IMG/VR virus record: IMGVR_UViG_3300024265_000035
Location: 38,389 to 102,388 of that record
DNA from: a virus
Reading direction: 5' to 3' (one strand)
DNA length: 64,000 bases
Each line of letters begins with the position of its first letter. The first letter of the stretch is position 1. Under the pieces are notes generated by a model, which was not told the origin of the DNA, made no database searches, and saw nothing but the letters and a program-made list of their open reading frames with translations. Below are positions 18,789 to 43,640 of the stretch, in pieces. The translations under genes and the position numbers were made by a program.

Positions 18789-19298
18789 TTAACTCCCACA
18801 AGTTGACGGATCAACTGGGTGGGAATTATCAATGAATTGAGCGGAATCACTATGTATTTGCATTTGACCCTCACGTGATGGTGTACACCTGCACTGAGTC
18901 ATGATCTTCTCATTGACCTGACCAAATACAAGCTGTGGCTGCGTGACTGATGTTATCTCAAACACTACTTGACCAAACTCAATGAAGTCACCTTCTTTTG
19001 GTGAAACATTCCTGCCGATAAGTTCATCTGTGTGGAAATAAACATCAAGACTGTATTTTGAATCTAGTGTAAACTGTGTCGTATCGACGCCTGGATTATC
19101 ATAATTGACCAAAGCATTGATTTTCACAGGACTAAACCATATCTTATTTATGCTTTCCTGATACAACCTGTGTGAGACAGTGTGTTCTTCAGAGATTGCG
19201 TAGTAGATGACCTCTTGACCAACAAAGTTCTGGATGAGTTCTTTGTTTATCTTCGATATAAAATCGAGCTCTTTCGATGTTATGAATTTTCTAGAGAT
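18789..19298 (-). CDS. Neck protein, gp14-like, apparently starting at ATC
   Basis: The 169-residue product resembles T4 gp14, which seals the head and joins it to the tail. Conserved parts are GQEVIYYAISEEH and RLYQES (T4: ECYYVPRE and LIFGED) near the N terminus and SPKEGDFIEFGQVVFEI later. The first ordinary start codon in frame is TTG 19166, which would delete the conserved N-terminal block. Upstream of it the frame is open back to a TGA at 19316-19318 with no ATG, GTG or TTG. ATC 19298 is preceded by GGAGG at eight bases spacing and gives MSRKFITSKELDFI. I therefore annotate ATC as the start. Confidence 0.7.
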   Translation of the reverse strand: MSRKFITSKELDFISKINKELIQNFVGQEVIYYAISEEHTVSHRLYQESINKIWFSPVKINALVNYDNPGVDTTQFTLDSKYSLDVYFHTDELIGRNVSPKEGDFIEFGQVVFEITSVTQPQLVFGQVNEKIMTQCRCTPSREGQMQIHSDSAQFIDNSHPVDPSTCGS

Positions 19299-19672
19299 TG
19301 TTCTGGCCTCCGTATATCAAAAATTGATCCAGGTTCTTCAATATCGACATCAACGATTGTCGCTAATTTATATGCAAGAGCTCCAATATCTTGCTGTGAT
19401 ATTTTCATTAACATGTGTGGTTTACCGGTTGCGCCAGCATCATAAAAGAAACCCTTAAGGCCTTTTTCGAGTTCATCAATAACAACATCAATATCATTAT
19501 GCTCACGATGAATATCATTAATCAAATCTACTGTAGATTGCTTCAGATCATCTACTATCTCATGGTTAACATCACCTCGTCGATTTTTAACCCATGTATC
19601 GATCACGTCATCTACAATTGTAGATATTTCATCGTTTTCACAAAGTTTATATACTTCAGTAAGTCTAATCAT
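19280..19672 (-). CDS. Leader-bearing small protein (candidate internal head protein)
   Basis: A 130-residue acidic protein of unknown function. The start is ATG 19672, with GGGAG four bases upstream; the longer frame to 19747 overlaps the preceding gene. The N terminus MIRLTEVYKLCE matches the leader shared with genes at 21817, 22173, 22995 and 23282 and contains an (I/L)xE site (LCE, residues 10-12) of gp21-protease type. The rest is helical, rich in Asp and Val, with no known motif. The start of the gp14-like gene lies within its 3' end. Confidence 0.62.
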   Translation of the reverse strand: MIRLTEVYKLCENDEISTIVDDVIDTWVKNRRGDVNHEIVDDLKQSTVDLINDIHREHNDIDVVIDELEKGLKGFFYDAGATGKPHMLMKISQQDIGALAYKLATIVDVDIEEPGSIFDIRRPEQSLENS

Positions 19673-21349: not shown

Positions 21350-21817
21350 TTATTTTAATCTTCCACCAAATGGGTCATAACCAAAATCTTTAAGTATCTC
21401 AGGTTCTCTACCGAGATGTATGTGACGTTCCCAAGTTTTACCGCCATCAATATCTGGATGTGCTAAGAATACAAAAACTTCACCTGAGTCCGGGTCAATT
21501 ACTTCAGTTCTAAACTTCTTTCCACCATGATCCCATAAAGTCACGTCTGTCAATTTTCCAAGATCTATACCTTCTTCTTCAATTTTTTCTCCAAAAGCAG
21601 TATGTAGCTGATTGCCGACTGTGCGATAGAAGTCGACATTTTGAATCTGCTTACCGTCGGTGGTGGCATCTGCATTCCCGACGCCGAGATCTTTTGATGT
21701 TAAACCAGCACTTGGAGGAGTCGGTCTTGCACGATGTTTTCCCTTTGGATCTTTAAACTTACCCCAAGGGAAGTTGGCTTCAAAAATTCGCTTGTATATC
21801 TCAGTGAGCTTGATCAT
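21350..21817 (-). CDS. Leader-bearing small protein (candidate internal head protein)
   Basis: 155 residues, starting at ATG 21817 with GGAGGG six bases upstream. The N terminus is MIKLTEIYKRIFEA, the clearest copy of the shared leader, with IFE at residues 11-13 followed by Ala as in T4 internal proteins. The body has a basic, Pro-rich linker (GKFKDPKGKHRARP) and a compact C-terminal domain (VTLWDHGGKKFRTEVIDPDS, FVFLAHPDID). No enzyme motif is recognised. It ends one base before the gp13-like ATG. Confidence 0.6.
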   Translation of the reverse strand: MIKLTEIYKRIFEANFPWGKFKDPKGKHRARPTPPSAGLTSKDLGVGNADATTDGKQIQNVDFYRTVGNQLHTAFGEKIEEEGIDLGKLTDVTLWDHGGKKFRTEVIDPDSGEVFVFLAHPDIDGGKTWERHIHLGREPEILKDFGYDPFGGRLK

Positions 21818-22173
21818 GGTCCACCCTCCCAAACCTTGTTTCGTTCATCCCACCAAAGATAATCTTCTCCAATTTCAGATTTCAAATTATCGTTATATGC
21901 ACGCCACTCACCTGAAAAATCTTCGAATTCCCATTTTGACGCATCTAAATCCATATTTGGATGGCCACTCCAATCATTAGCAAACTTGTCTGCAGCTTCT
22001 TTTTCTTTTGTTGTAAATTGATCCCATGTAAACACTGGAATCTTATCAGTCGATGATGTACCAGTTGATTGTTTTTGTTTTTCCCATGGGTTTGGATCAC
22101 TAGGTTTTATTGGCTGTTGCTTATCGAAATCCCATTGAAGCGTGGCTTCGTATAATTTGATGAGCTTGATCAT
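21814..22173 (-). CDS. Leader-bearing small protein (candidate internal head protein)
   Basis: 119 residues, starting at ATG 22173; the frame open to 22329 lies over the preceding gene in another frame. The N terminus MIKLIKLYEATLQWDF shows a short leader with LYE at residues 7-9 followed by Ala-Thr. The rest is polar, Trp- and Asp-rich (WDQFTTKEKEAADKFANDW, EWRAYNDN, YLWWDERNKVWEGG). No known family. The 3' end overlaps the next start by four bases (ATGATC...). Confidence 0.58.
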   Translation of the reverse strand: MIKLIKLYEATLQWDFDKQQPIKPSDPNPWEKQKQSTGTSSTDKIPVFTWDQFTTKEKEAADKFANDWSGHPNMDLDASKWEFEDFSGEWRAYNDNLKSEIGEDYLWWDERNKVWEGGP

Positions 22174-22177
22174 CTCT

Positions 22178-22555
22178 CTACTTAAATCTCCTCTCGAATG
22201 CGCCGAGTTCCCTGAGGAACACACGCCACTCACGAAGCACTCTTCCCATAGCGTGTGACTCTGCTGTATTGTAAGCTCTCTTGTCCTCTCTAAGGGCCAC
22301 ATCCTCAAGGATATCCTGCACTGTCTCATTGAGCTTGCAAGCCATCTCGCTGAGCTCCAGTTTCACTCGTGAGCCATGAGCCAGCTCCGCCACATACTGC
22401 CCAAACTTGCCGGAAGATTCGGTCTTATTGTGGTCGACCTTCTCCTTCGGTGACATCATTCCTGAGGGTTGTTCTGCAGCTCCTTGCATGCCCTTGATGT
22501 CTTCCGGGTCAATTTCAACAGAGATCTTAAATGCTTCTGTTAATCGTGTTCTCAT
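22178..22555 (-). CDS. Small helical protein with related N terminus
   Basis: 125 residues with ATG 22555 and a GAGAGAA ribosome site. The N terminus MRTRLTEAFKISVE is similar to the LTEIYK leader, but its Glu is not preceded by Ile or Leu at the P3 position, so protease cleavage is less convincing. The remainder is helical and charged (VKLELSEMACKLNETVQDIL, ALREDKRAYNTAESHAMGRV). No recognised family. It overlaps the preceding gene by four bases. Confidence 0.58.
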   Translation of the reverse strand: MRTRLTEAFKISVEIDPEDIKGMQGAAEQPSGMMSPKEKVDHNKTESSGKFGQYVAELAHGSRVKLELSEMACKLNETVQDILEDVALREDKRAYNTAESHAMGRVLREWRVFLRELGAFERRFK

Positions 22556-22995
22556 TTTTGTTCTCTCGCTTGAGCACTTCGTTTAAATTCTCTGCCCAGT
22601 TCATTTACAAATCGATAATCCAAGTCTCTAACAAAATTAGCTATTGATTGTTTTTCACGTGTGGCTGTTGCAAAGGCTTCCAGTATCCATGTAGCAGCAT
22701 ATTTTGCTTTGAGGTTGTACCATTTTTCAGGACCGTCATATACTAACCATGCTTTATCTGCTGTCCTAAGTTTTAAATCCTGAACAGTTTGATCAAGATA
22801 CTCTGAACCGTCTATATCTCTGCCTTCTCCGTATGCTTCCACTGAATCAGCAAGAAGTGTTATCAGTATCTCTCTTCCGTTGGACCATTTCTTTAGATGT
22901 ACACTGTTGGGATCGACATACTGATTAACAAGCTTCTCTATTCTTTTTGTTGTAATGTCTGACGCTTCAAGAAGATATAGACTTGTTAGTTTCAC
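22552..22995 (-). CDS. Leader-bearing small protein (candidate internal head protein)
   Basis: 147 residues, starting at GTG 22995. The N terminus MKLTSLYLLEASDITTK has the shared leader, with LLE at residues 8-10 followed by Ala-Ser. The remainder appears alpha-helical (IEKLVNQYVDP, AKYAATWILEAFATATREKQ) with a basic C terminus (ELGREFKRSAQAREQK). I do not recognise a family. It is part of the run of five small genes between the capsid terminator and the gp13-like neck gene. Confidence 0.58.
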   Translation of the reverse strand: MKLTSLYLLEASDITTKRIEKLVNQYVDPNSVHLKKWSNGREILITLLADSVEAYGEGRDIDGSEYLDQTVQDLKLRTADKAWLVYDGPEKWYNLKAKYAATWILEAFATATREKQSIANFVRDLDYRFVNELGREFKRSAQAREQK

Positions 22996-22997
22996 TC

Positions 22998-23282
22998 TTA
23001 TCTCGGTGTCTTTCCTACAACGCCAAGCAATTGCTTAAACTTCTGCTGCACTACGTCATCGACCCCTGCATGATCCAAGATAACAATTGCGAGCTGAATG
23101 AGCTCATGTTCGTTCATGTCCCTGACAATTGGACTCTTAAACATCAGCTTAATTGCTTTATCGATGCGTGTGCCATGATTGTCGGCATCTTTGCCAAAAT
23201 CTTTGTTAGCATCCTTATTGACATCTTTATCAGCTTCTTCTTCTTCTTCTTCTACGATTCGAAACACTTCATTCAATTTCAT
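22998..23282 (-). CDS. Leader-bearing small acidic protein
   Basis: 94 residues, starting at ATG 23282 because GGAGG lies eight bases upstream; the longer open frame to 23372 runs through the terminator hairpin. The N terminus MKLNEVFRIVEEEEEE carries IVE at residues 9-11, then an acidic run and repeats of the type DKDVNKDANKDFGKDAD. The C-terminal half is a helical domain (NEHELIQLAIVILDHAGVDD) that resembles other small phage assembly proteins. It is the first gene after the capsid terminator. Confidence 0.58.
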   Translation of the reverse strand: MKLNEVFRIVEEEEEEADKDVNKDANKDFGKDADNHGTRIDKAIKLMFKSPIVRDMNEHELIQLAIVILDHAGVDDVVQQKFKQLLGVVGKTPR

Positions 23283-23400: not shown

Positions 23401-25119
23401 TTAGATTACGTTGAGGTCCTGCACCTGTACGGTTCCATAAAAGTCGCTTCGAACCAATTTCTTAGCGTACCTGGTCATCACACCCTTGCGAGGCGTGAAG
23501 TCTTCAGGTGCGTAGATCGTCGGAGTGACAATCAATGGCACGTAAGGTGCATACACAAAGCCCGTCTCGAGGAAGCTACCTCCCTTGTATCCAACAAGAA
23601 CCTTGTTCCTGATGAAGTACGGATCCTTGTAGACCGTGAACCTGTTGTTCAGGCTACCGACCTTTTCAGTACCGACGGTGAACTGGCTCTCCTTTGGGTC
23701 CATCGAAAGGTTTGGCTTATAGAGCACTGATGCTTCCAGAATCGTGCAGACATCCGGAGATGTGACGAGGAAGTTAGCTGCTCCACGAAGCGTCTTGCGA
23801 TGGATGTTGTTTGCGACGTCGATGACTGTCTCGATGAGAGTCTCGTACCACTCGCGAACAGTACCAGTGAAGGACGCACCAGTTGCGGTGTTGCCCGTGG
23901 TCTTATCCAGGAAGTTACCAGGCTTACGTGACCAGAAGAAGTTCGCGCCAGTTGCATTGTATAGCAAGTCAGCGAGAATTTCGCGGTCGATTTCAAGAGC
24001 GATCTGCTCTGAAAGCACCTGAGTAAGCTCAACCTCTGCATCCAAGTTCTGGTATGCAGCGAGGTCCTGAGCAAGCTCCGGAGTCCAGCGAGCCCTAAGC
24101 TTCCTGGTCTCAGCAGTCACACTGACTGACTGGATACGCAGGTCGATTTCTGGGATCGACGGAGTTGGGCTGGTAGCAAGGTCAGACTCGAAGACCGGGA
24201 GGGTCAACGTACCAGAAGTTCCACCTGTGAGGCTAGGATCAATCAGGTAACTGATCTTGATGGCGCCGTCAACACCGACACCTGCACCACCGAGCTGTGG
24301 CAGTGTACCACTTACGATGAATACAACATTATCACCGTCTCTTACCGTGTGGCGCCTGTAGACTACGACATCTGCTGTTGCATCTGTACCGAGTCTAATA
24401 GGAACACCGTCGCTCGTTGTCGTGAATGACGTTGACGAACCTGACACGGGTACCCAATGCTTCAAGCCACCGATAGAAACATCAGAACCTGAACCGACTA
24501 GAATCGAGCGTGCACTTGTAACAGTGAGCTTGATAAGATTCGTCACTGAACCTGAAAGATCAGGATCATGTGCGACGTCTGACAACGATGCAGTTGCTGC
24601 AGTGTAGTTGAATGACGCGACTGATACTCTTTCCCTACTTGAGAAGCTCGTACCGAAGTTATAGAAACCTCCAGTACCTAGGTTCTCAGTTCCAGGTGCT
24701 GTCTGGTCACCGAACAATGAACCACCGACCGTAAAGTCGTCGTTCTTATTGCCGGCCTTGACAGTATCAAACCTGTAGTCGAGGTAGAAGAGAAGTCCTG
24801 ATGGCAGACTCATTGGCTGCACAGAAACGAGCTCGTTCGCGATCAGACCACCGAATACACGGCGTACGATTGGGAATGCAACGTTCTGGAAACCGATAAT
24901 GTCAGCTACCTGTGACTGCTCGTTAAGAAGCTCGCCAGCCATGTTCTCGAGAAGAACGGCCATGTTAGACTTGTCAGCCTGGTTACGACTGTCGTCTAGA
25001 CCCTCGAGAAGACCGGTGACGGTCCACTTCTCAACTAGTCTCTTTACCTCAGCTTTACGATCATTCTTATAAATGTCCTTCGTAAGTGCTGCGAGGTTGA
25101 AATTAGCTTGCCTTGGCAT
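23401..25119 (-). CDS. Major capsid protein, gp23-like
   Basis: The 572-residue precursor of the main head protein. Similarities to T4 gp23 include EKWTVTGLLEGL near the N terminus (T4: NKWKPLLEGEGL), PIVRRVFGGLIANELVSVQP, and the late segments KARWTPELAQDLAAYQNLDA, EIDREILADL and YVPLIVTPT. Several (I/L)xE sites (LLEG about residue 38, LLEN about 57) are candidates for removal of the N-terminal peptide by the gp21-like protease. A strong ribosome site AAGGAGATACAAAAG precedes ATG 25119. The terminator at 23340-23374 ends the transcript. Confidence 0.95.
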   Translation of the reverse strand: MPRQANFNLAALTKDIYKNDRKAEVKRLVEKWTVTGLLEGLDDSRNQADKSNMAVLLENMAGELLNEQSQVADIIGFQNVAFPIVRRVFGGLIANELVSVQPMSLPSGLLFYLDYRFDTVKAGNKNDDFTVGGSLFGDQTAPGTENLGTGGFYNFGTSFSSRERVSVASFNYTAATASLSDVAHDPDLSGSVTNLIKLTVTSARSILVGSGSDVSIGGLKHWVPVSGSSTSFTTTSDGVPIRLGTDATADVVVYRRHTVRDGDNVVFIVSGTLPQLGGAGVGVDGAIKISYLIDPSLTGGTSGTLTLPVFESDLATSPTPSIPEIDLRIQSVSVTAETRKLRARWTPELAQDLAAYQNLDAEVELTQVLSEQIALEIDREILADLLYNATGANFFWSRKPGNFLDKTTGNTATGASFTGTVREWYETLIETVIDVANNIHRKTLRGAANFLVTSPDVCTILEASVLYKPNLSMDPKESQFTVGTEKVGSLNNRFTVYKDPYFIRNKVLVGYKGGSFLETGFVYAPYVPLIVTPTIYAPEDFTPRKGVMTRYAKKLVRSDFYGTVQVQDLNVI

Positions 25120-32618: not shown

Positions 32619-33212
32619 CTACTTCCTCACTCGTATATCATTAAGAGCTCTATAGATCCTGTCAGCCTTGCTCCATATTCTCTTAACGTCAACTTCAACT
32701 GATTCATTCATGAACGCGCCAGGAGTTGATGGTTCACTAACTGCGTCAAAACAAATGAGCTGGTAGTCATCCTGTACAACGTCAGTACCTTCATTCGTTG
32801 ACTCTGTGCTTCCCACTCCCCTGCTCGACATTCCAATTCTGACGCCTGATTCAAGAAGTGACTCAAGGATCTTTCCTTTCGGTGTATTTAGAACTTCTAC
32901 CATCCCACGAACTACATCACCTTCCCAGAAGATTTCTCTGACAATGTGAGATGTCTTATCGAGTGCAACTGTTGATGTTTCAGGATGATCAAGTTCGCCT
33001 AGAGCTCTGTTCTCACGAACGACTTTCTCATAGTTCAATACTTCACGTTGAAGGATCTCATTTGGATAGATTCGACCATTCTGATTCTTCGTACCAGACT
33101 TCTGAAGAATTGCTGGCAGAAGAATTTTTCCACCATTCTTATTCCTTGACTCATTGATGGCATCGGCAGTACATTCAAGTGCATACCACTCTCTTAAAAG
33201 TGTCTTTTTCAT
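32619..33212 (-). CDS. Prohead core protease, gp21-like
   Basis: The 197-residue serine protease that matures the head. Conserved motifs are NQNGRIYP (about 44-51), GELDHPE with catalytic His76, and RIGMSSRGVGS with nucleophile Ser130 (or Ser129), as in the T4 gp21 / herpesvirus-like prohead protease family. It cuts capsid, scaffold and internal proteins after (I/L)xE in T4. The N terminus MKKTLLREWYALE may allow self-processing. The gene order portal, two core-like genes, protease, scaffold, capsid corresponds to T4 genes 20 to 23. Confidence 0.93.
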   Translation of the reverse strand: MKKTLLREWYALECTADAINESRNKNGGKILLPAILQKSGTKNQNGRIYPNEILQREVLNYEKVVRENRALGELDHPETSTVALDKTSHIVREIFWEGDVVRGMVEVLNTPKGKILESLLESGVRIGMSSRGVGSTESTNEGTDVVQDDYQLICFDAVSEPSTPGAFMNESVEVDVKRIWSKADRIYRALNDIRVRK

Positions 33213-35272: not shown

Positions 35273-38200
35273 CTAGGAAGAATTCTTAGTGCTGTATCCT
35301 CTATAGAGATTTTCTTTAAGAATGCTATTCGTTTTTCTAAGGTCATTTTCAAATTTCTCTACTCTAGCCAACGAAGATTGCACATACTGACCGATTGGGT
35401 CGGGTTCATTTGATTCTGTCACATTCTCAGAAAATGGGTTTGATATCATTCTTTTTATTGATCTCATATCGAAAGGATCAGATGCTGTCTGTTTCTCAGT
35501 ACCGAATACATGGTTAAACAAGTCTTCACTCGGGTCAAATAAGTCCTTACCCTTGTTAACTGATACCTCTGAGCTACAGCCGCGGCTTCCAGGGTTATGT
35601 CTTTCGTCACCTTCGCCAGACTCATCGATTTCACTTTTATCTTCTTCGCACTCATCTTCATCTTTTAATAGAATAGGTGCCATCGATAATGTTAGTTCAT
35701 CGTCATTCTGGTCATCGTAGTCGACGCCAGCTTCAAGTTCTTCTTCGCCGCCGAGTGATGTTGGCAGTTCTTCTTCTCCTGGTATTGCTTCACCGCCTGG
35801 CTCTGGTTCTGCTCCTGGTGCTGCACCTATGCTAGGTTCTTCTTCATCAGTCTCTGGTTCAGCAGTTATGCCATCAAGCTCCATCTGGAATAACTTATCA
35901 GCGCGCATCTCATCCTGCATCTCTTCAATTTCTTGTTTCGACATGCCAAGGATGTCACGCCATGTCTGTGTCTTGCTGACCATGCCCTCCTGGACAGAAC
36001 CTGCAATCTCAAGCTTTAGTCTCCATAGTTCAAGTTTCTGCTGCTCAGCAATCGTAGATGGATTAGCCATCTTAATATCATAATCGATTAGCTCGTTATC
36101 ACGGAATCCAAGAAGATAAAGATGGATAATCGCGATTTTCATGAGCTCTGAGAGCACAATCTTCTGAATTCGCTGAATTGTCCTTGAGAATCTAACATCT
36201 TCTTGCGCAAGTGTCGCTTTAGATCCCACATCACCCTCATATCCGAGGTACGCCTTTGGAATCTGAAGTGCTGCAAAGAGCTTATTCTGAATATACTCTA
36301 CATCTTCGATATCGCCAGTGAATTGACCACCCGGCAATGTTGTAATGTCTGAACCCTTCCCGTCTCTTTGGGGCAGGAAGTAATCTTCATCGACAGAGAG
36401 AGGGTTGTAGCGAAGATCGACACGTCCTGTGGCTGCATCAATAATCTTGCTTCTCTTCAGTCTATTCTGGATCTGCTCCATCTCTGCTGGCACATCTTCT
36501 GGTTTGACGTTACCAACTTCAATCTTAAAGACTCTCCTCTCAGGAGACCTCACGATCCTGTAGACTAGCATTGCATCCTCGATGAGGATAAGCTGACGCC
36601 AAATGCGTCGTGCTGGTTCAATGATGCTAGCACCATATGGCAAGAAGTTATCATTACCCAGAAGTCTAAAATGAATGATCTGCCATGCTTCCAGGATCAT
36701 GTTGCCCTGTGTCAGCCACCTGAATCGGAATGCGAACGGATTCTTTGGATCATAGCCTTCTTCCCTCTCTACCTCATTGATAGGAATCGGGAGCATGTTC
36801 AGAATTCCATTCTGCTCACTTGCATCCACGAACAATATGAAATCACCGTATTTGCACAGGTTTCTTACCCACGAATGCAGGTTAAACTCGATATTAAGAA
36901 TATCAAAGAACAGCGTCTCAAGAATATTCTTGATTTGTTGGTTATCAGACTCAATCTCGATCATGTGGCCTTTCTCATCCACATTCGTTACTTCATCTGC
37001 GTAGATATTCAGAGCAGAAGCAATCTCTGGAGTGTTATGTGATATTACTGAATCTGTTGCAAAGTTCTTGTATTTGTCAACTGTTAAATCATATACGTCT
37101 TCATGTCCATAATATTCAACAGACACAACCTTACAATTGTTGTAGTTTCTACAGAAGTCTGCAGTACTCTTATAACCGTGTTGTTTAACTCTACCTTTAA
37201 TTTTCATGGGCGTGACATCTAACTTTCTCACAAGATCCATGCCTTTCATGTTTGGTGTCCATGCATCACAGATCATTTGAAACGTTAGAGAATCATCCCA
37301 TCTTGGGTTTTTACTTCCTGCATTATCCCAACCGTGGTTTTTCCACTCGGAATTATATGTTTTCGCAAAGATCTCCCAATTAGCGAAACTATATCTTTTT
37401 AATTTTCTCTTTATAACATTGGGATCGGTATCAAAAACTTTGCATGTCTCATAGAGATTAAATCCGTTATTCTCAGCGGCTTGTAAAATCTTTGCAAATG
37501 TTATATCTCGACGCTCAGCAGGATTATTCTCCTTCATGAATTTCGAATGTTCACGTTTGAACTTCTCAATCCACTCACTATTCTTTTCGTAGTTCCACTT
37601 ATGTTCTTTGTTATAAATAATCCTATGAAGACGTGAATGATCATCACGATTCATTATCTCAAGATTTTCTGGTCTATTATCAAACTTTAAGAAATTCTTA
37701 TGATGGACTACTTCATTTTCTTCCATGATTCTATCAGAAGACCATTCAGCAATCATTTTATGTTCTGTCTGCCACCCGTTTTTCGTATCGGGTGTCATTG
37801 AATAGATATACTGATAGTGTTCTGTGTCAAATCTACCTTTAGGCGAACGAAATGAACGACGATAGAATGGCATCATAGAATCACCAGCAACTAATCCACA
37901 GATCTTCCTATAAGATCCGTCTCTTAACATGAGTCTATGGTCAGATGTTCCTATGATTTCTTTTCCATTATCGAATGTTACTTTCCACGCGTGTTCTGTT
38001 CTTGTTTTTCTAGCTTGCTTAGCTATAGCAGGAACAATCTGTCCAACTTCATGGTCATAAGAAAAAACAACAAACTCTTTCTCAAGACCATATTCTTCAG
38101 CTAGTTCTTTAATTGTCTTATATCCACCAGGTACAGCTATAAGTGTACTTCCTAGAATGCAATATTCCATTTCTGAGTAATCTGCATACCTCGCCAGCCG

Positions 38201-38392
38201 CTCGTACTGTCCATATGATGCAAGAGAGTTAACGTAGAGCGACGAGAGCTCTTTTCTATACGCGCGTGCAGTGCCCTGAGGCTCGTACATTTTCGAGCTA
38301 CTCGCGACCTTGTGGCGTACGACGGGACCGTTGCGGAACAGCCTAGTTAACTGAGCCCAGATACTCTCTTGTTGTCTAATCAGTGGTGGCAT
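35273..38392 (-). CDS. Portal protein (gp20-like) containing an intein
   Basis: The 1039-residue precursor. Residues 1-77 and 454-1039 form the 663-residue portal; residues 78-453 are an intein. Portal features are NIYADEVTNVD, HFRLLGNDNFLPYGASIIEP, RIVRSPERRVFKIEVGNVKP and LPGGQFTGDIEDVEYIQNKL followed by LQIPKAYLGYEGD, the standard T4 gp20 core. It forms the 12-fold ring at the head vertex used for packaging and ejection. The C-terminal 180 residues are acidic and flexible. Splicing must be efficient for a working portal. It precedes the head genes and follows a zinc-ribbon gene by eight bases. Confidence 0.93.
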   Translation of the reverse strand: MPPLIRQQESIWAQLTRLFRNGPVVRHKVASSSKMYEPQGTARAYRKELSSLYVNSLASYGQYERLARYADYSEMEYCILGSTLIAVPGGYKTIKELAEEYGLEKEFVVFSYDHEVGQIVPAIAKQARKTRTEHAWKVTFDNGKEIIGTSDHRLMLRDGSYRKICGLVAGDSMMPFYRRSFRSPKGRFDTEHYQYIYSMTPDTKNGWQTEHKMIAEWSSDRIMEENEVVHHKNFLKFDNRPENLEIMNRDDHSRLHRIIYNKEHKWNYEKNSEWIEKFKREHSKFMKENNPAERRDITFAKILQAAENNGFNLYETCKVFDTDPNVIKRKLKRYSFANWEIFAKTYNSEWKNHGWDNAGSKNPRWDDSLTFQMICDAWTPNMKGMDLVRKLDVTPMKIKGRVKQHGYKSTADFCRNYNNCKVVSVEYYGHEDVYDLTVDKYKNFATDSVISHNTPEIASALNIYADEVTNVDEKGHMIEIESDNQQIKNILETLFFDILNIEFNLHSWVRNLCKYGDFILFVDASEQNGILNMLPIPINEVEREEGYDPKNPFAFRFRWLTQGNMILEAWQIIHFRLLGNDNFLPYGASIIEPARRIWRQLILIEDAMLVYRIVRSPERRVFKIEVGNVKPEDVPAEMEQIQNRLKRSKIIDAATGRVDLRYNPLSVDEDYFLPQRDGKGSDITTLPGGQFTGDIEDVEYIQNKLFAALQIPKAYLGYEGDVGSKATLAQEDVRFSRTIQRIQKIVLSELMKIAIIHLYLLGFRDNELIDYDIKMANPSTIAEQQKLELWRLKLEIAGSVQEGMVSKTQTWRDILGMSKQEIEEMQDEMRADKLFQMELDGITAEPETDEEEPSIGAAPGAEPEPGGEAIPGEEELPTSLGGEEELEAGVDYDDQNDDELTLSMAPILLKDEDECEEDKSEIDESGEGDERHNPGSRGCSSEVSVNKGKDLFDPSEDLFNHVFGTEKQTASDPFDMRSIKRMISNPFSENVTESNEPDPIGQYVQSSLARVEKFENDLRKTNSILKENLYRGYSTKNSS
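37034..38161 (-). mobile_element. Intein with HNH endonuclease in the portal
   Basis: The intein starts at Cys78 (CILGSTLIAVPGG) and ends at His452-Asn453, followed by Thr454 as the first residue after splicing. Block B is GTSDHRLML, block F VYDLTVDKYKNFATDSVIS, block G SHN then T. A homing region is inside: VVHHKNFLKFDNRPENLEIM and RDDHSRLH, the HNH core with DNA-binding helices following. It joins EMEY and TPEIASAL. Hint elements at both ends suggest a functional protein-splicing element. Confidence 0.93.
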
Positions 38393-38400
38393 GTTCTATT

Positions 38401-38835
38401 TTAAATCTTCGAAATCTTGTCAATTATATTTTGATAAGATTTCTTATACTCTGGCGAAATTAATTCATTGCTTTTAGCAATTTCAACCATTTTTTTTATC
38501 AATTTCCAATCTACATTTGAAGCTAACTTTGCATTTGTCGTATCATGTGTTACTTGTCCAGAACTATTCGTAGATCTGCCATTCACAACAAAGCTAACAA
38601 GTTTTTTTCTATCTGAATCTGATATTTCTCCATCTAACCACGGAGCATCGGCACTACTGGCTAATGAAATTATTTGTTTCAATTCTTCTTTTGAAAAATG
38701 ACTAGCTATGTCAGCTCCTGAATGTCTACACCCGGGATTTTTGCAATCTACATCATGCATTCCCACATATGCACCTGGTTCCCCACATTCTGGACAGTCA
38801 GCTTCAAAGAGATATATGTTATGTATTTGCTTCAT
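38401..38835 (-). CDS. Zinc-ribbon protein with leader, 144 aa
   Basis: The N terminus MKQIHNIYLFEA matches the shared leader with LFE at residues 9-11 followed by Ala-Asp. Next is a four-Cys element, CPECGEPGAYVGMHDVDC and NPGCRHSG, and then a helical domain of 100 residues (SKEELKQIISLASSADAPWL). Function unknown. It lies between the ADP-ribosyltransferase-like gene and the portal. Like the small capsid-side genes it may be an internal head protein with a DNA- or RNA-binding zinc ribbon. Confidence 0.6.
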   Translation of the reverse strand: MKQIHNIYLFEADCPECGEPGAYVGMHDVDCKNPGCRHSGADIASHFSKEELKQIISLASSADAPWLDGEISDSDRKKLVSFVVNGRSTNSSGQVTHDTTNAKLASNVDWKLIKKMVEIAKSNELISPEYKKSYQNIIDKISKI

Positions 38836-38836
38836 A

Positions 38837-39346
38837 CTACGATTTTACCATGTAACCCTTGATATAATTAGCAGGAATATTAGAAGGATACATTACCTCT
38901 GCAAGTTCCCAATATCTAGGGTTTCCTTTGCCTTTCTTTTTCCATGTCTCATGGTCATAGATCCTGGTATCTCTCTTTGATGTAACGAATTTATCCCACA
39001 TGTTCGACGGAAGCTGCACTACAATAACAGCTCTCTCACTCATCGGTGCGCTCTTGACAGCTTTAGAGCGCCTGAAATCCCTCTCGCCACCTGCTCCTGC
39101 CATTGCAGCATAGCCGCGTGCAGTAAACGGATCTAACGCTAAATAAACTCCGACACCTTTTGCTCCATGGCCAGCCTGAAGTCCTCCCTTTGATATCTTA
39201 TCGAGATTGCTAATGTGAGTACCATGAAATAAGATACCAGTGTCCTGCCACCAAGCGTTCTCATCGAACGACCATGGCATCTCCCTCATGTTTAGTTCAT
39301 CAAACTTCTCAATGATGAAGATCTCGTCAAGTCGTGGCCAACTCAT
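38837..39346 (-). CDS. ADP-ribosyltransferase-like protein with leader
   Basis: The 169-residue product starts at ATG 39346 inside the terminase stop (ATGA overlap). Residues 39-82 show the NAD-binding core of the H-Y-E type: ILFHGTHISNLDKISKGGLQ with His41, then GVGVYLALDPFTARGYAAM with Tyr68. The final conserved Glu is probably in WELAEVMYP. The N terminus MSWPRLDEIFIIE resembles the leader and has IIE at residues 11-13. T4 injects the head-borne ADP-ribosyltransferase Alt; this protein could be a small counterpart. The target is unknown. Confidence 0.75.
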   Translation of the reverse strand: MSWPRLDEIFIIEKFDELNMREMPWSFDENAWWQDTGILFHGTHISNLDKISKGGLQAGHGAKGVGVYLALDPFTARGYAAMAGAGGERDFRRSKAVKSAPMSERAVIVVQLPSNMWDKFVTSKRDTRIYDHETWKKKGKGNPRYWELAEVMYPSNIPANYIKGYMVKS

Positions 39347-41028
39347 TTGCTTGAAATCAACCAACCTAAATTTTCTACAGTACCATCAGGCAGCACTAGT
39401 TCGTACGGATTAACTCCTGGACTAGCAGATATCCTGTCATTTGCTTTAACAAATCTAGGATCCTTCGTAGCTCCCGGTATCTGAGTGTGATCTGTCACGT
39501 TTTTACTAATTAGACCCAACAATGTCTTGCTCATATCTTCAGTTAACATGTTTGGAGAAAGAAATGTTTCTTTTACCCAGCATGCAAGAGCCATGGAAAT
39601 AACGAGATCATCGTTATAACCCTTCATTGCTTCAGGTTTGCCATTGTTCCAGATGAACTTTCTTAGTTCTTCAAGCATTCGATTTGATCGAATCGTTATG
39701 TTTCTCGTTCGAATATACTCCTCGAACTTCTGTAGCATTAGCGGTCTTGTGCGAACAGATGTCGTAAACCCTGGAACATACTCTGTCATTGATGGAAGTG
39801 GCAGAGCTGCATTAAATGACTGCCCTGGCTTAAAGTCTCCCTTACGTGAGAAATAGATATTCTCATATTCAGCTAACTTAATGTGTTCTAAGCATGCTAG
39901 CCCGACTGAATTGTTCTCTACAACAAGAAGTGCTCCATTATAGTCATTCCCTGTACGGACAAGTAATTCCGCAAACTGATCAGGTGGAACTTTTGCATAG
40001 TACTCAGCATGCTGTGTCAGTGTGCCAATATCAAAGATATGTGCTCCAGAATAGTCATTCCCATCTCCTCTGGCAACATCTGCAGTAATCATATACTGAA
40101 TCACTGGCTGCGGTGGTGTCCACACGTGGAGTTTTCTATCCCAGTTTTCGAATGAGACAGGTGGAAGAATTGTATTATCTTGGATCCACTGCATCTGTTC
40201 AGATGTGATAAAGTTATCACCAGATGCATTGAAGTTGCACTCAAGCTCCTGTGCAACCTCTCGCTTGTCCATTCCAGCTGTTTCTTTTTTGAACCAACTG
40301 CTTATCTTGTATCCGGGTCTTACTGGATCATCTTCAAGATCATTAATCCCATTCTCATCGATGACTCGCTCAGGATGCACATACCACATGAGCTTCGTTA
40401 ATTTAAACTCATTCTCCCCCGTGTCAGCACCAACAAAAATCTTGTGGAACGTATTTCCGATGCCTTTCGGAGTCGACATCATTACGACACTACCACCAGC
40501 TGTAACAACCGGACGAAGACCAGTCCAGATCTCCTCCATGTTCTCAATATGAGCAGCTTCATCGATGATTAGCAATGAACCTGCTTCTGAACGGCCAGCA
40601 TCCTTGGCTGTTGAGACAGCCTTGATACGTGAACCATTTGTCAGCTCGATTGAGAATACGTTGTTTGCAACGACTGACGTGAGCATCAGCCATGCTGGTA
40701 GATTCTTGATCGCTGTGGCGACCTTGCGAATGATATTTCTCGCTGTCTCTTTCTTTGTTGCTATAACGACGATATTCTTATCACGTCGGAATAACATCAT
40801 CCATGTAGCATATGCAGCTGTGGTCTCAGAGATACCCAGCTGTCGTGCTTTTAGAATGCAGTTGAAGCGATTCTCTTGGTAGTCCTTTAGCAGGGTTGCT
40901 TGATAGTCGTACAAGTCAAAGGGAATTAATCCTCTGACTGGATGCTGAATCTTTACATAATTTCGTATGAAATATTCAGGATCAGTGCCACACTTTATGA
41001 TCTCAGCTTTTAAGGACTTCCTGTTCAA
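39343..41028 (-). CDS. Terminase large subunit, gp17-like
   Basis: The 561-residue packaging motor and nuclease. The ATPase has an adapted Walker A loop, KARQLGISETT (60-70), Walker B with catalytic Glu, LLIIDEAAH (152-160), and the coupling STPKGIGNTF. The nuclease domain contains MITADVARGDGNDYSGAH with Asp317, VVENNSVG (Glu in the middle) and YNDDLVISMALACW. No intein is present. The small subunit could be one of the unrecognised genes upstream (41040 or 41507) but nothing confirms this. Confidence 0.95.
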   Translation of the reverse strand: MNRKSLKAEIIKCGTDPEYFIRNYVKIQHPVRGLIPFDLYDYQATLLKDYQENRFNCILKARQLGISETTAAYATWMMLFRRDKNIVVIATKKETARNIIRKVATAIKNLPAWLMLTSVVANNVFSIELTNGSRIKAVSTAKDAGRSEAGSLLIIDEAAHIENMEEIWTGLRPVVTAGGSVVMMSTPKGIGNTFHKIFVGADTGENEFKLTKLMWYVHPERVIDENGINDLEDDPVRPGYKISSWFKKETAGMDKREVAQELECNFNASGDNFITSEQMQWIQDNTILPPVSFENWDRKLHVWTPPQPVIQYMITADVARGDGNDYSGAHIFDIGTLTQHAEYYAKVPPDQFAELLVRTGNDYNGALLVVENNSVGLACLEHIKLAEYENIYFSRKGDFKPGQSFNAALPLPSMTEYVPGFTTSVRTRPLMLQKFEEYIRTRNITIRSNRMLEELRKFIWNNGKPEAMKGYNDDLVISMALACWVKETFLSPNMLTEDMSKTLLGLISKNVTDHTQIPGATKDPRFVKANDRISASPGVNPYELVLPDGTVENLGWLISSK

Positions 41029-43129: not shown

Positions 43130-43359
43130 TAGTTCTTTTTCCTTTTCTTAATCCTGTATCCTCGATCGTGTTCTAAAAATTCCAGCTCTTCACCTTCATT
43201 AATGCCACCGTGTGTAAACCGCTCGCTGTATGTAATCTTCTCACCAGGTTTTAAAACATTCTTAGGTTTCCCAATTCTCTCTCGAGCAGAACCAATAAGG
43301 TCTTCGATCATCTTACCAAAACCACCTTCTTTACGAAACTTCAACCATTTATCTTTCAT
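43129..43359 (-). CDS. Basic hypothetical protein, 76 aa
   Basis: A Lys/Arg/Glu-rich protein (KWLKFRKEGGFGKMIEDLIG, then SARERIGKPKNVLKPGEKIT). The C terminus RGYRIKKRKKN is strongly basic. No known domain or membrane segment. It is joined by one-base overlaps to the zinc-finger gene before it and the holin-like gene after it. The function is unknown. Confidence 0.48.
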   Translation of the reverse strand: MKDKWLKFRKEGGFGKMIEDLIGSARERIGKPKNVLKPGEKITYSERFTHGGINEGEELEFLEHDRGYRIKKRKKN

Positions 43360-43640
43360 TATTCTTCTCCAAACAACTTAAAAGATACTGGAATTTGATA
43401 TGCTGCATAGATTTGATTACGAATATATTCCATTTCGTCATTTAAACCCATAGGTTCATATTCCACAATATGTTTTATTGTTACGTCATGTCGTTGGATC
43501 CATTCACCTGTATATTCAAGCGTTAAAGGATCATATTTTAATCTTCGCTTTAGTCTTGGAACCTTATCACAATCATTTGAACAATAAAAAGAAGTAAATA
43601 ACATCTTCAATTCTATTCCACAGTGTTTACAGTTATTCAT
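43359..43640 (-). CDS. Zinc-finger protein with portal-like C terminus, 93 aa
   Basis: The N terminus has a treble-clef type cysteine set, CKHCGIELKM and FYCSNDC. The last 30 residues, GLNDEMEYIRNQIYAAYQIP followed by VSF, resemble portal segment GDIEDVEYIQNKLFAALQIP. The fusion may be chance or reflect a recombination between a portal-like fragment and a zinc-finger gene. The role is not known. It abuts the fused recombination nuclease gene. Confidence 0.5.
   Translation of the reverse strand: MNNCKHCGIELKMLFTSFYCSNDCDKVPRLKRRLKYDPLTLEYTGEWIQRHDVTIKHIVEYEPMGLNDEMEYIRNQIYAAYQIPVSFKLFGEE

Follow-up and report, generated by a model that had tools for sequence, protein, structure and literature searches.

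A Probable Head-Packaged ADP-Ribosyltransferase and Its Putative Leader in a T4-Related Phage

The prototype of a packaged ADP-ribosyltransferase (ART) is Alt, a large (>600 aa) protein of the R-S-E class that is packed in the head of phage T4. In the T4 records, Alt starts MELITE/LFDE and IPIII starts MKTYQEFIAE/AS, where the slash marks the cut site (known here, predicted for the phages below). The Alt propeptide is cut at ITE-6 (PMC5694885). For packaging, the ten N-terminal residues of IPIII are enough, and the cut by gp21 follows L/I-X-E, with IPIII mutants indicating that positions 4 and 7 target the protein and that positions 8 and 10 direct cutting (PMC9026906). The H-Y-[EDQ] clade of ARTs is recognized by a motif I of H-G-[ST], a conserved Tyr and a motif III Glu, and Pfam places DUF2441 in the ART clan (PMC7955679). 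Iyer and colleagues found about 44% of phage ARTs in contexts suggesting packaging, and capsid-targeting leaders are not mentioned in that paper (PMC9503650). Genome sequences do not normally reveal virion cargo, and few of the proteins that phages inject are therefore known.

Here, a gene is described from a window of 64,000 nucleotides (the whole stretch analyzed), which is part of a 102,388-base IMG/VR record of a T4-related phage. Sequence comparison and structural models suggest that this gene probably encodes a compact H-Y-E ART that is targeted by a leader, cut by gp21, packaged in the head and ejected, and that acts on a host macromolecule.

Genomic Context of the ART Gene

The protein has 169 residues and starts MSWPRLDEIFIIEKFDELN. 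A previous sequence-only reading had placed an open reading frame at 38837-39346 without stating its strand; the frame is real and encodes 169 aa on the minus strand, and the plus-strand frame over the same positions is full of stops. That reading had also placed the ATG of the gene within the terminase stop, which is confirmed by the junction sequence, ...AGCAAATGAGTTGG (also given as ...AAATGAGT...), where the start codon of the ART and the TGA stop of the gene for the terminase large subunit (TerL) overlap. Along the minus strand follow TerL, ART, a 144-aa Cys-rich ORF, portal gp20, S77 prohead protease and major capsid protein (Table 1), and several of the ART relatives described below also sit among head or terminase genes. 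No relatives of the 144-aa ORF were found in viral contigs or phages. No enrichment of the T4 late promoter TATAAATA was seen in the window, so late expression of the ART is deduced from its operon alone. Judged by terminase, the closest relatives are L009 and L010 (67-68% identical), and both lack an ART gene between TerL and portal, which makes the ART an accessory gene.

The TerL-portal junction region is an insertion hot spot, as seen in the portal intein with its HNH endonuclease and in the junction genes of relatives. These include a GIY-YIG gene (L015 9689-10294) and a gene for a protein starting MAQLTDILKE/ (L045 9611-10723). Elsewhere in the window, a 93-aa ORF (43359-43640) has a short Cys-rich start followed by a second half (EYIRNQIYAAYQIPVSF) that resembles the portal stretch EYIQNKLFAALQIPKAY, and this ORF is possibly a portal fragment.

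Table 1. Positions in the window of the ART gene, its predicted leader and catalytic codons, head genes and other leader-bearing genes.
Feature	Coordinates	Strand	Basis
ART gene, 169 aa	39346..38837	minus	ATG start overlapping terminase stop (ATGA); homologues and fold
Putative capsid-targeting leader MSWPRLDEIFIIE, residues 1-13, predicted cut after E13	39308..39346	minus	[LI]xE end, family comparison, same-genome dialect
H41 codon, motif I HGT	39224..39226	minus	invariant in family alignment
Y68 codon, motif II YLA	39143..39145	minus	Ser in most relatives
Y79 codon, second presumed NAD-stacking Tyr	39110..39112	minus	invariant; 11 residues after Y68
E150 codon, motif III LAE, presumed catalytic Glu	38897..38899	minus	invariant; precedes model strand 151-153
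Terminase large subunit, T4 type	39343..41028	minus	PF03237 E 2e-13, phrog_2 E 2e-48
Next gene downstream of ART, 144 aa, Cys-rich start, own leader MKQIHNIYLFE/ADCPECG	38401..38835	minus	sequence
Portal gp20 with intein/HNH	35273..38392	minus	PF07230 E 1e-76, PF14890 E 7e-16
Prohead core protease gp21 (S77), presumed leader-cutting enzyme	32619..33212	minus	PF03420 E 1e-27, phrog_207 E 5e-48
Major capsid protein gp23	23401..25119	minus	position and likeness to annotated gp23 of related phages
Leader-bearing protein MKLNEVFRIVE/EEEEEAD, internal Met	22998..23282	minus	reading of sequence
Leader-bearing protein MKLTSLYLLE/ASDITTK	22552..22995	minus	leader pattern
Leader-bearing protein MIKLIKLYE/ATLQW, start at internal ATG	21814..22173	minus	leader pattern
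Leader-bearing protein MIKLTEIYKRIFE/ANFPWGKF, start at internal ATG	21350..21817	minus	leader pattern
Leader-bearing protein MIRLTEVYKLCE/NDEIS, internal Met	19280..19672	minus	reading of sequence

Fold and Family Assignment

The motifs and models indicate that the window protein is almost certainly a member of the ART superfamily of the H-Y-E type. With the single sequence, no curated cut-off of Pfam, NCBIfam or PHROGs was reached: PF00644 (PARP) gave 17.1 bits, under its gathering cut-off of 26.7, NCBIfam Tpt1/KptA gave 14.3 of 233 bits, and PHROGs and PDB searches gave nothing meaningful. The PADLOC DarT profile matched at E 1e-3. The PARP profile matches nine of the 11 family members, below its cut-off, and profiles built from the family alignment put Tpt1 at the top of the PDB list (E 5e-4), with DarT weaker and lower down. 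AlphaFold models were obtained for the window ART (pLDDT 71, pTM 0.68) and for its relative L098 (pLDDT 82.7, pTM 0.79), and in fold comparison Tpt1 leads for both (Z 10.1 and 8.7, respectively), followed by TreX, DarT, PARP13/16 and the cholera/diphtheria-type toxins, so that ART folds fill both lists. The model of the window ART has the ART fold when compared with Tpt1 bound to NAD (VIA Z 10.1, 2.5 A over 88 residues). The structural check proposed in the sequence-only reading was carried out in part: the models give the ART fold, and the window protein has all the tetrad residues.

Three closer assignments were rejected. Membership in Tpt1/KptA fails on architecture, as the match begins at about Tpt1 residue 87 and only about 33 residues precede it here. 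DarT membership was dismissed on the partner, the neighbors being TerL, the 144-aa Cys-rich ORF and the portal, and scans with Pfam and PHROGs gave no match to a DarG-like macrodomain beside the gene. Homology to T4 Alt was rejected on motif and size (an H-G-T motif I, 169 aa, no ExE), and no sequence relation was found. The initial description of the protein as an Alt-like counterpart consequently does not hold as worded, since Alt is a large R-S-E enzyme and the window ART is of the H-Y-E class.

The fold does not tell the acceptor, because PARP and toxin ARTs have the same fold, and with Tpt1 and DarT among its nearest folds, RNA or DNA has to be weighed seriously against protein. A packaged ART could act on nucleic acid (RNA 2'-phosphate or RNA/DNA ends, as with Tpt1/KptA, or DNA bases, as with DarT) instead of host protein, for example by repairing or disabling RNA early in infection. 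While the best fold and profile matches (Tpt1/KptA and DarT) and the invariance of R92 and R105 in the family would fit such a role, the matches are confined to the NAD-binding C-terminal half of Tpt1 (chain residues 87-181), the protein lacks the Tpt1 N-terminal domain and no DarG-like macrodomain neighbor is seen. Action on nucleic acid is accordingly regarded as a minority possibility.

Family Members and Conserved Residues

Homologues of the ART were found by tblastn in 45 Vibrio phage records (about 33% identity, E 1e-13), and those opened are Ackermannviridae, in which the proteins (Kuja_0200, MYOV002v2_p0037) are annotated only as hypothetical. A single-sequence scan of viral contigs gave no matches and alignments were required; alignment-driven profile scans identified relatives in ten IMG/VR contigs (three with an identical ART protein, one being Kuja itself) and in one contig of a Verrucomicrobia MAG that is probably a phage. 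The relatives share 29-39% identity with the window ART and keep H41, Y79 and E150. Across 11 aligned members, the invariant positions are H41-G-T-H44, Y79, G86-G-E88, F91-R92, R105 and E150. The H-Y-type NAD-binding core proposed from the sequence alone is upheld, as FHGTH spans H41 and GVGVYLA spans Y68, and the third catalytic Glu that was anticipated near WELAEVMYP can be assigned to E150, giving the H-Y-E class. The window ART thereby carries the motifs of the H-Y-[EDQ] clade (H41-G-T, Y68 with Y79, and E150), and the 11-residue spacing of its two Tyr residues is that of PARP1 and diphtheria toxin.

It is highly improbable that the protein is a head-packaged but catalytically dead ART functioning as a structural or decoy internal protein. 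The family does tolerate change, as most relatives have Ser in place of Y68 and the homologue in Vibrio phage 1.244.A (L006 6001-6429) has lost the N-terminal part with the HGTH motif, which suggests that it is probably a broken copy. However, all 11 aligned members keep H41, Y79 and E150, and the window copy retains the full PARP-type H-Y-Y-E set (H41, Y68, Y79, E150). Active transfer to a host macromolecule by the predicted enzyme is reasonably likely.

The Putative N-Terminal Leader

The N terminus of the ART had been noted to resemble a leader and to carry IIE at residues 11-13. The IIE lies at these residues, and the resemblance is to the T4-type capsid-targeting form, which is seen again on relatives and on further proteins of this phage; the leader is disordered in the AlphaFold model. 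The ten distinct members outside Vibrio start MSWPRLDEIFIIE/K (window), MRHFELRE/A, MISFRQYILRE/Q, MKAIELFE/N, MRFYEIFE/S, MLTFKQFLLE/D, MKSFSQFLAE/D, MKFKNYLKE/Q, MLRFSQFITE/AS and MLRLKDFITE/K. These leaders vary in sequence and length yet keep the cut motif, with [LI]xE ending at residue 8-13 in 10/10 distinct members from phage-like contigs. When the residues of the ten N-termini were shuffled, a mean of 1.7/10 carried [LI]xE and 10/10 was reached in 0 of 20,000 trials, a statistic that overstates independence because the members are related. The IPIII-like register is found at positions 4, 7, 8 and 10 in L102, L103 and L105 and at 7, 8 and 10 in L089, and close matches to the IPIII leader include MLRFSQFITE/AS and MKSFSQFLAE/D.

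The leader is absent from the Vibrio Ackermannviridae copies, which start directly at the core with no upstream start codon for a leader. They adjoin a large gene that itself begins MALFKQLVE/ (144E46.1) or MATLKHILSE/. Consequently, either the family does not need a leader everywhere or the Vibrio group delivers the ART differently.

Leader Dialects within Single Genomes

The window ART (LDEIFIIE/K) shares an ungapped core, [LI]xx[IL][YF][LI]xE, with unrelated proteins of its own genome. The core is present at 22552-22995 (MKLTSLYLLE/AS) and 38401-38835 (MKQIHNIYLFE/AD) and in two proteins encoded outside the window, one of 215 aa (MITLKEIYIIE/KLEN) and another starting MISLARIFLFE/S. A leader pattern written after seeing the leaders is found in 7/106 ORFs of this genome, whereas shuffled sequences gave 0.23 on average and 2 at most, so that the leader resemblance goes beyond chance. 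The 215-aa protein (G000:C1:35879-36526, minus), whose leader is nearly the same as that of the window ART, is of DUF2441 type (E 7e-4, below cut-off). A paralogous leader-bearing pair is formed by the window gene at 21350-21817 (MIKLTEIYKRIFE/ANFPWGKF) and G000:C1:36526-36984 (MIRLKKIYRRLWE/ADFPWGKF).

Other genomes with a family member have leaders of a different type. In G008, the ART leader MKSFSQFLAE is accompanied by MKTFGQFLSE and, beside gp21, by MKTFAEFITE and MKTLSQFINE (4 leader-pattern genes vs 0.12 shuffled). In G005, where the ART leader is MKAIELFE, a further 18 genes have leaders of the MR(A/Y)xEL(Y/F/T)E type, some of them in a tandem array (19 vs 0.09 shuffled). Patterns such as these were partly chosen after inspecting the leaders, and the gp21 motif is short. 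Within the array (L112 / L100; contig G005, 18.9-31 kb), nearly all proteins start MR(A/Y)xEL(Y/F/T)E. One leader-tagged G005 protein is ART-PolyVal (E 1e-7, over cut-off), a neighbor with the similar leader MFLVELFE is CTP-transferase-like, and several tagged array proteins have ART-like motifs as judged by eye only; PDB searches with two of the latter gave no support, and Pfam gave none for most. Of five genomes compared, three (the window genome, G005 and G008) have an ART leader in the local dialect, and in the partial contigs G001 and G006 the ART leader has no own-genome match.

Additional leader-like starts are seen on large or ART-related proteins. A 2507-aa multi-domain protein encoded outside the window (G000:C1:26120-33643, minus; locus L097 6120-13643) starts MSLSYLDKIIRE/QLLE and contains an inorganic pyrophosphatase (E 2e-33), a nucleotidyltransferase (IGRFQPFHKGH, E 7e-14), weak RNA ligase and kinase-like stretches and, by eye and unconfirmed by Pfam, an R-S-E ART-like stretch (YRG...FSSWTT...EEQEYIVI); it looks like a polyvalent injected protein. 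A related phage encodes a 1366-aa nucleotidyltransferase-like protein starting MNLINE/VDKPEVKKTVVVYAGRFQPFHKGH (L045 2525-6625), and Atu_ph07 encodes an ART-PolyVal protein with the leader MKWQDLSE/.

Protease and Probable Packaging

The window genome encodes the S77 protease, as do five other genomes with the ART (L007, L101, L103, 144E46.1 and Kuja); the protease gene was not found in G005 and several short contigs, all of which may be fragments. The probable maturation cut of gp23 in the window phage, LLNE67/QSQ, compares with LISE/AN in Mel-JY01 and IVSE/AN in immuto, and this capsid cut site is consistent with the protease preference. The window ART has the sequence marks of a T4-type internal head protein, namely a short leader ending in [LI]xE that is shared by unrelated proteins of its genome, and a gp21-type protease encoded in the same genome.

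An ordinary late cytoplasmic ART, unpackaged and with an N terminus that is a variable extension matching IIE by chance, would account for the Vibrio phage homologues, which presumably function without a leader, and [LI]xE alone is common, occurring in 18.5/106 shuffled N-termini of the window genome. It is nevertheless unlikely given the leader on all ten distinct members outside Vibrio, the octapeptide core common to unrelated proteins of the same genome and the encoded gp21 protease. Packaging of the ART in the head is probable on this sequence evidence, and packaging with delivery is likely because of the [LI]xE leaders, the same-genome dialect and the gp21-type S77 protease.

Proposed Mechanism and Significance

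The assignment to the ART superfamily, the conserved His, Tyr and Glu, the leader with its recurrence and the protease gene are what the sequence and models show; late expression, targeting, cutting, ejection, activity and target are inferred. First, the ART would be made late, translationally coupled to terminase. Next, the 13-residue leader would target it into the prohead core. As the head matures, the gp21-type protease would cut after IIE13, and a mature enzyme of about 156 residues would remain inside. Finally, the mature ART would be ejected with the DNA into the host, where, as infection begins, it would take ADP-ribose from the NAD+ of the host and transfer it to a host macromolecule.

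Head-packaged phage ARTs have been predicted previously (PMC9503650); what is new is a compact H-Y-E family with putative cleavable leaders, together with the leader dialects. Chances are about even that, in environmental T4-like phages, genome-specific dialects serve as a plug-in address that loads an arsenal of NAD-dependent enzymes into the virion. In G005, this arsenal would comprise about 19 tagged proteins, including two ARTs by profile or homology and several ART-like by eye, and in the window phage the tags would mark at least the H-Y-E ART and the DUF2441-type ART, and possibly the 2507-residue protein. If so, effector cargo could be predicted from sequence alone by its leader, and should a short leader with a terminal [LI]xE be a mark of head cargo generally in phages with gp21, injected effectors would become predictable across thousands of uncultured phages. 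Compact PARP-like ARTs delivered by leaders would likewise be new host-takeover enzymes, distinct from Alt and small enough for direct assay.

Comparison with Known Systems

The window ART and T4 Alt both belong to the ART superfamily and occur in phages with gp20/gp21/gp23-type heads, and Alt also has an N-terminal propeptide that gp21 cuts after [LI]xE (MELITE/LFDE; PMC5694885). Alt, however, is several times larger, is also cut at its C-terminus and is encoded elsewhere in the genome. The leader also resembles those of T4 IPI-IPIII, which have about ten residues ending in E with [IL] two before and place one leader on unrelated mature proteins; four ART family members match IPIII at E10, [IL] at 8 and F7. 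In contrast, the IPs are not ARTs, and the window leader, at 13 residues, is longer by three at its N-terminus.

The PARP-like H-Y-[EDQ] ARTs, Tpt1/KptA and DarT share the fold, the HGT motif and the conserved Tyr and Glu, whereas the window ART falls under every curated cut-off, carries a head leader and is without the N-terminal domain of Tpt1 and the DarG partner of DarT. The Vibrio Ackermannviridae proteins (Kuja_0200, MYOV002v2_p0037) belong to the same ART family (33-37% identical) but have no leader and lie beside a large gene (MALFKQLVE/ in 144E46.1) instead of terminase. The phage polyvalent-protein and MuF-fused ARTs are also encoded near terminase or portal and are predicted to be packaged and injected (PMC9503650). 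Unlike these, the window ART is small and free-standing, and its putative delivery is by a cleavable leader and not by fusion to a head protein.
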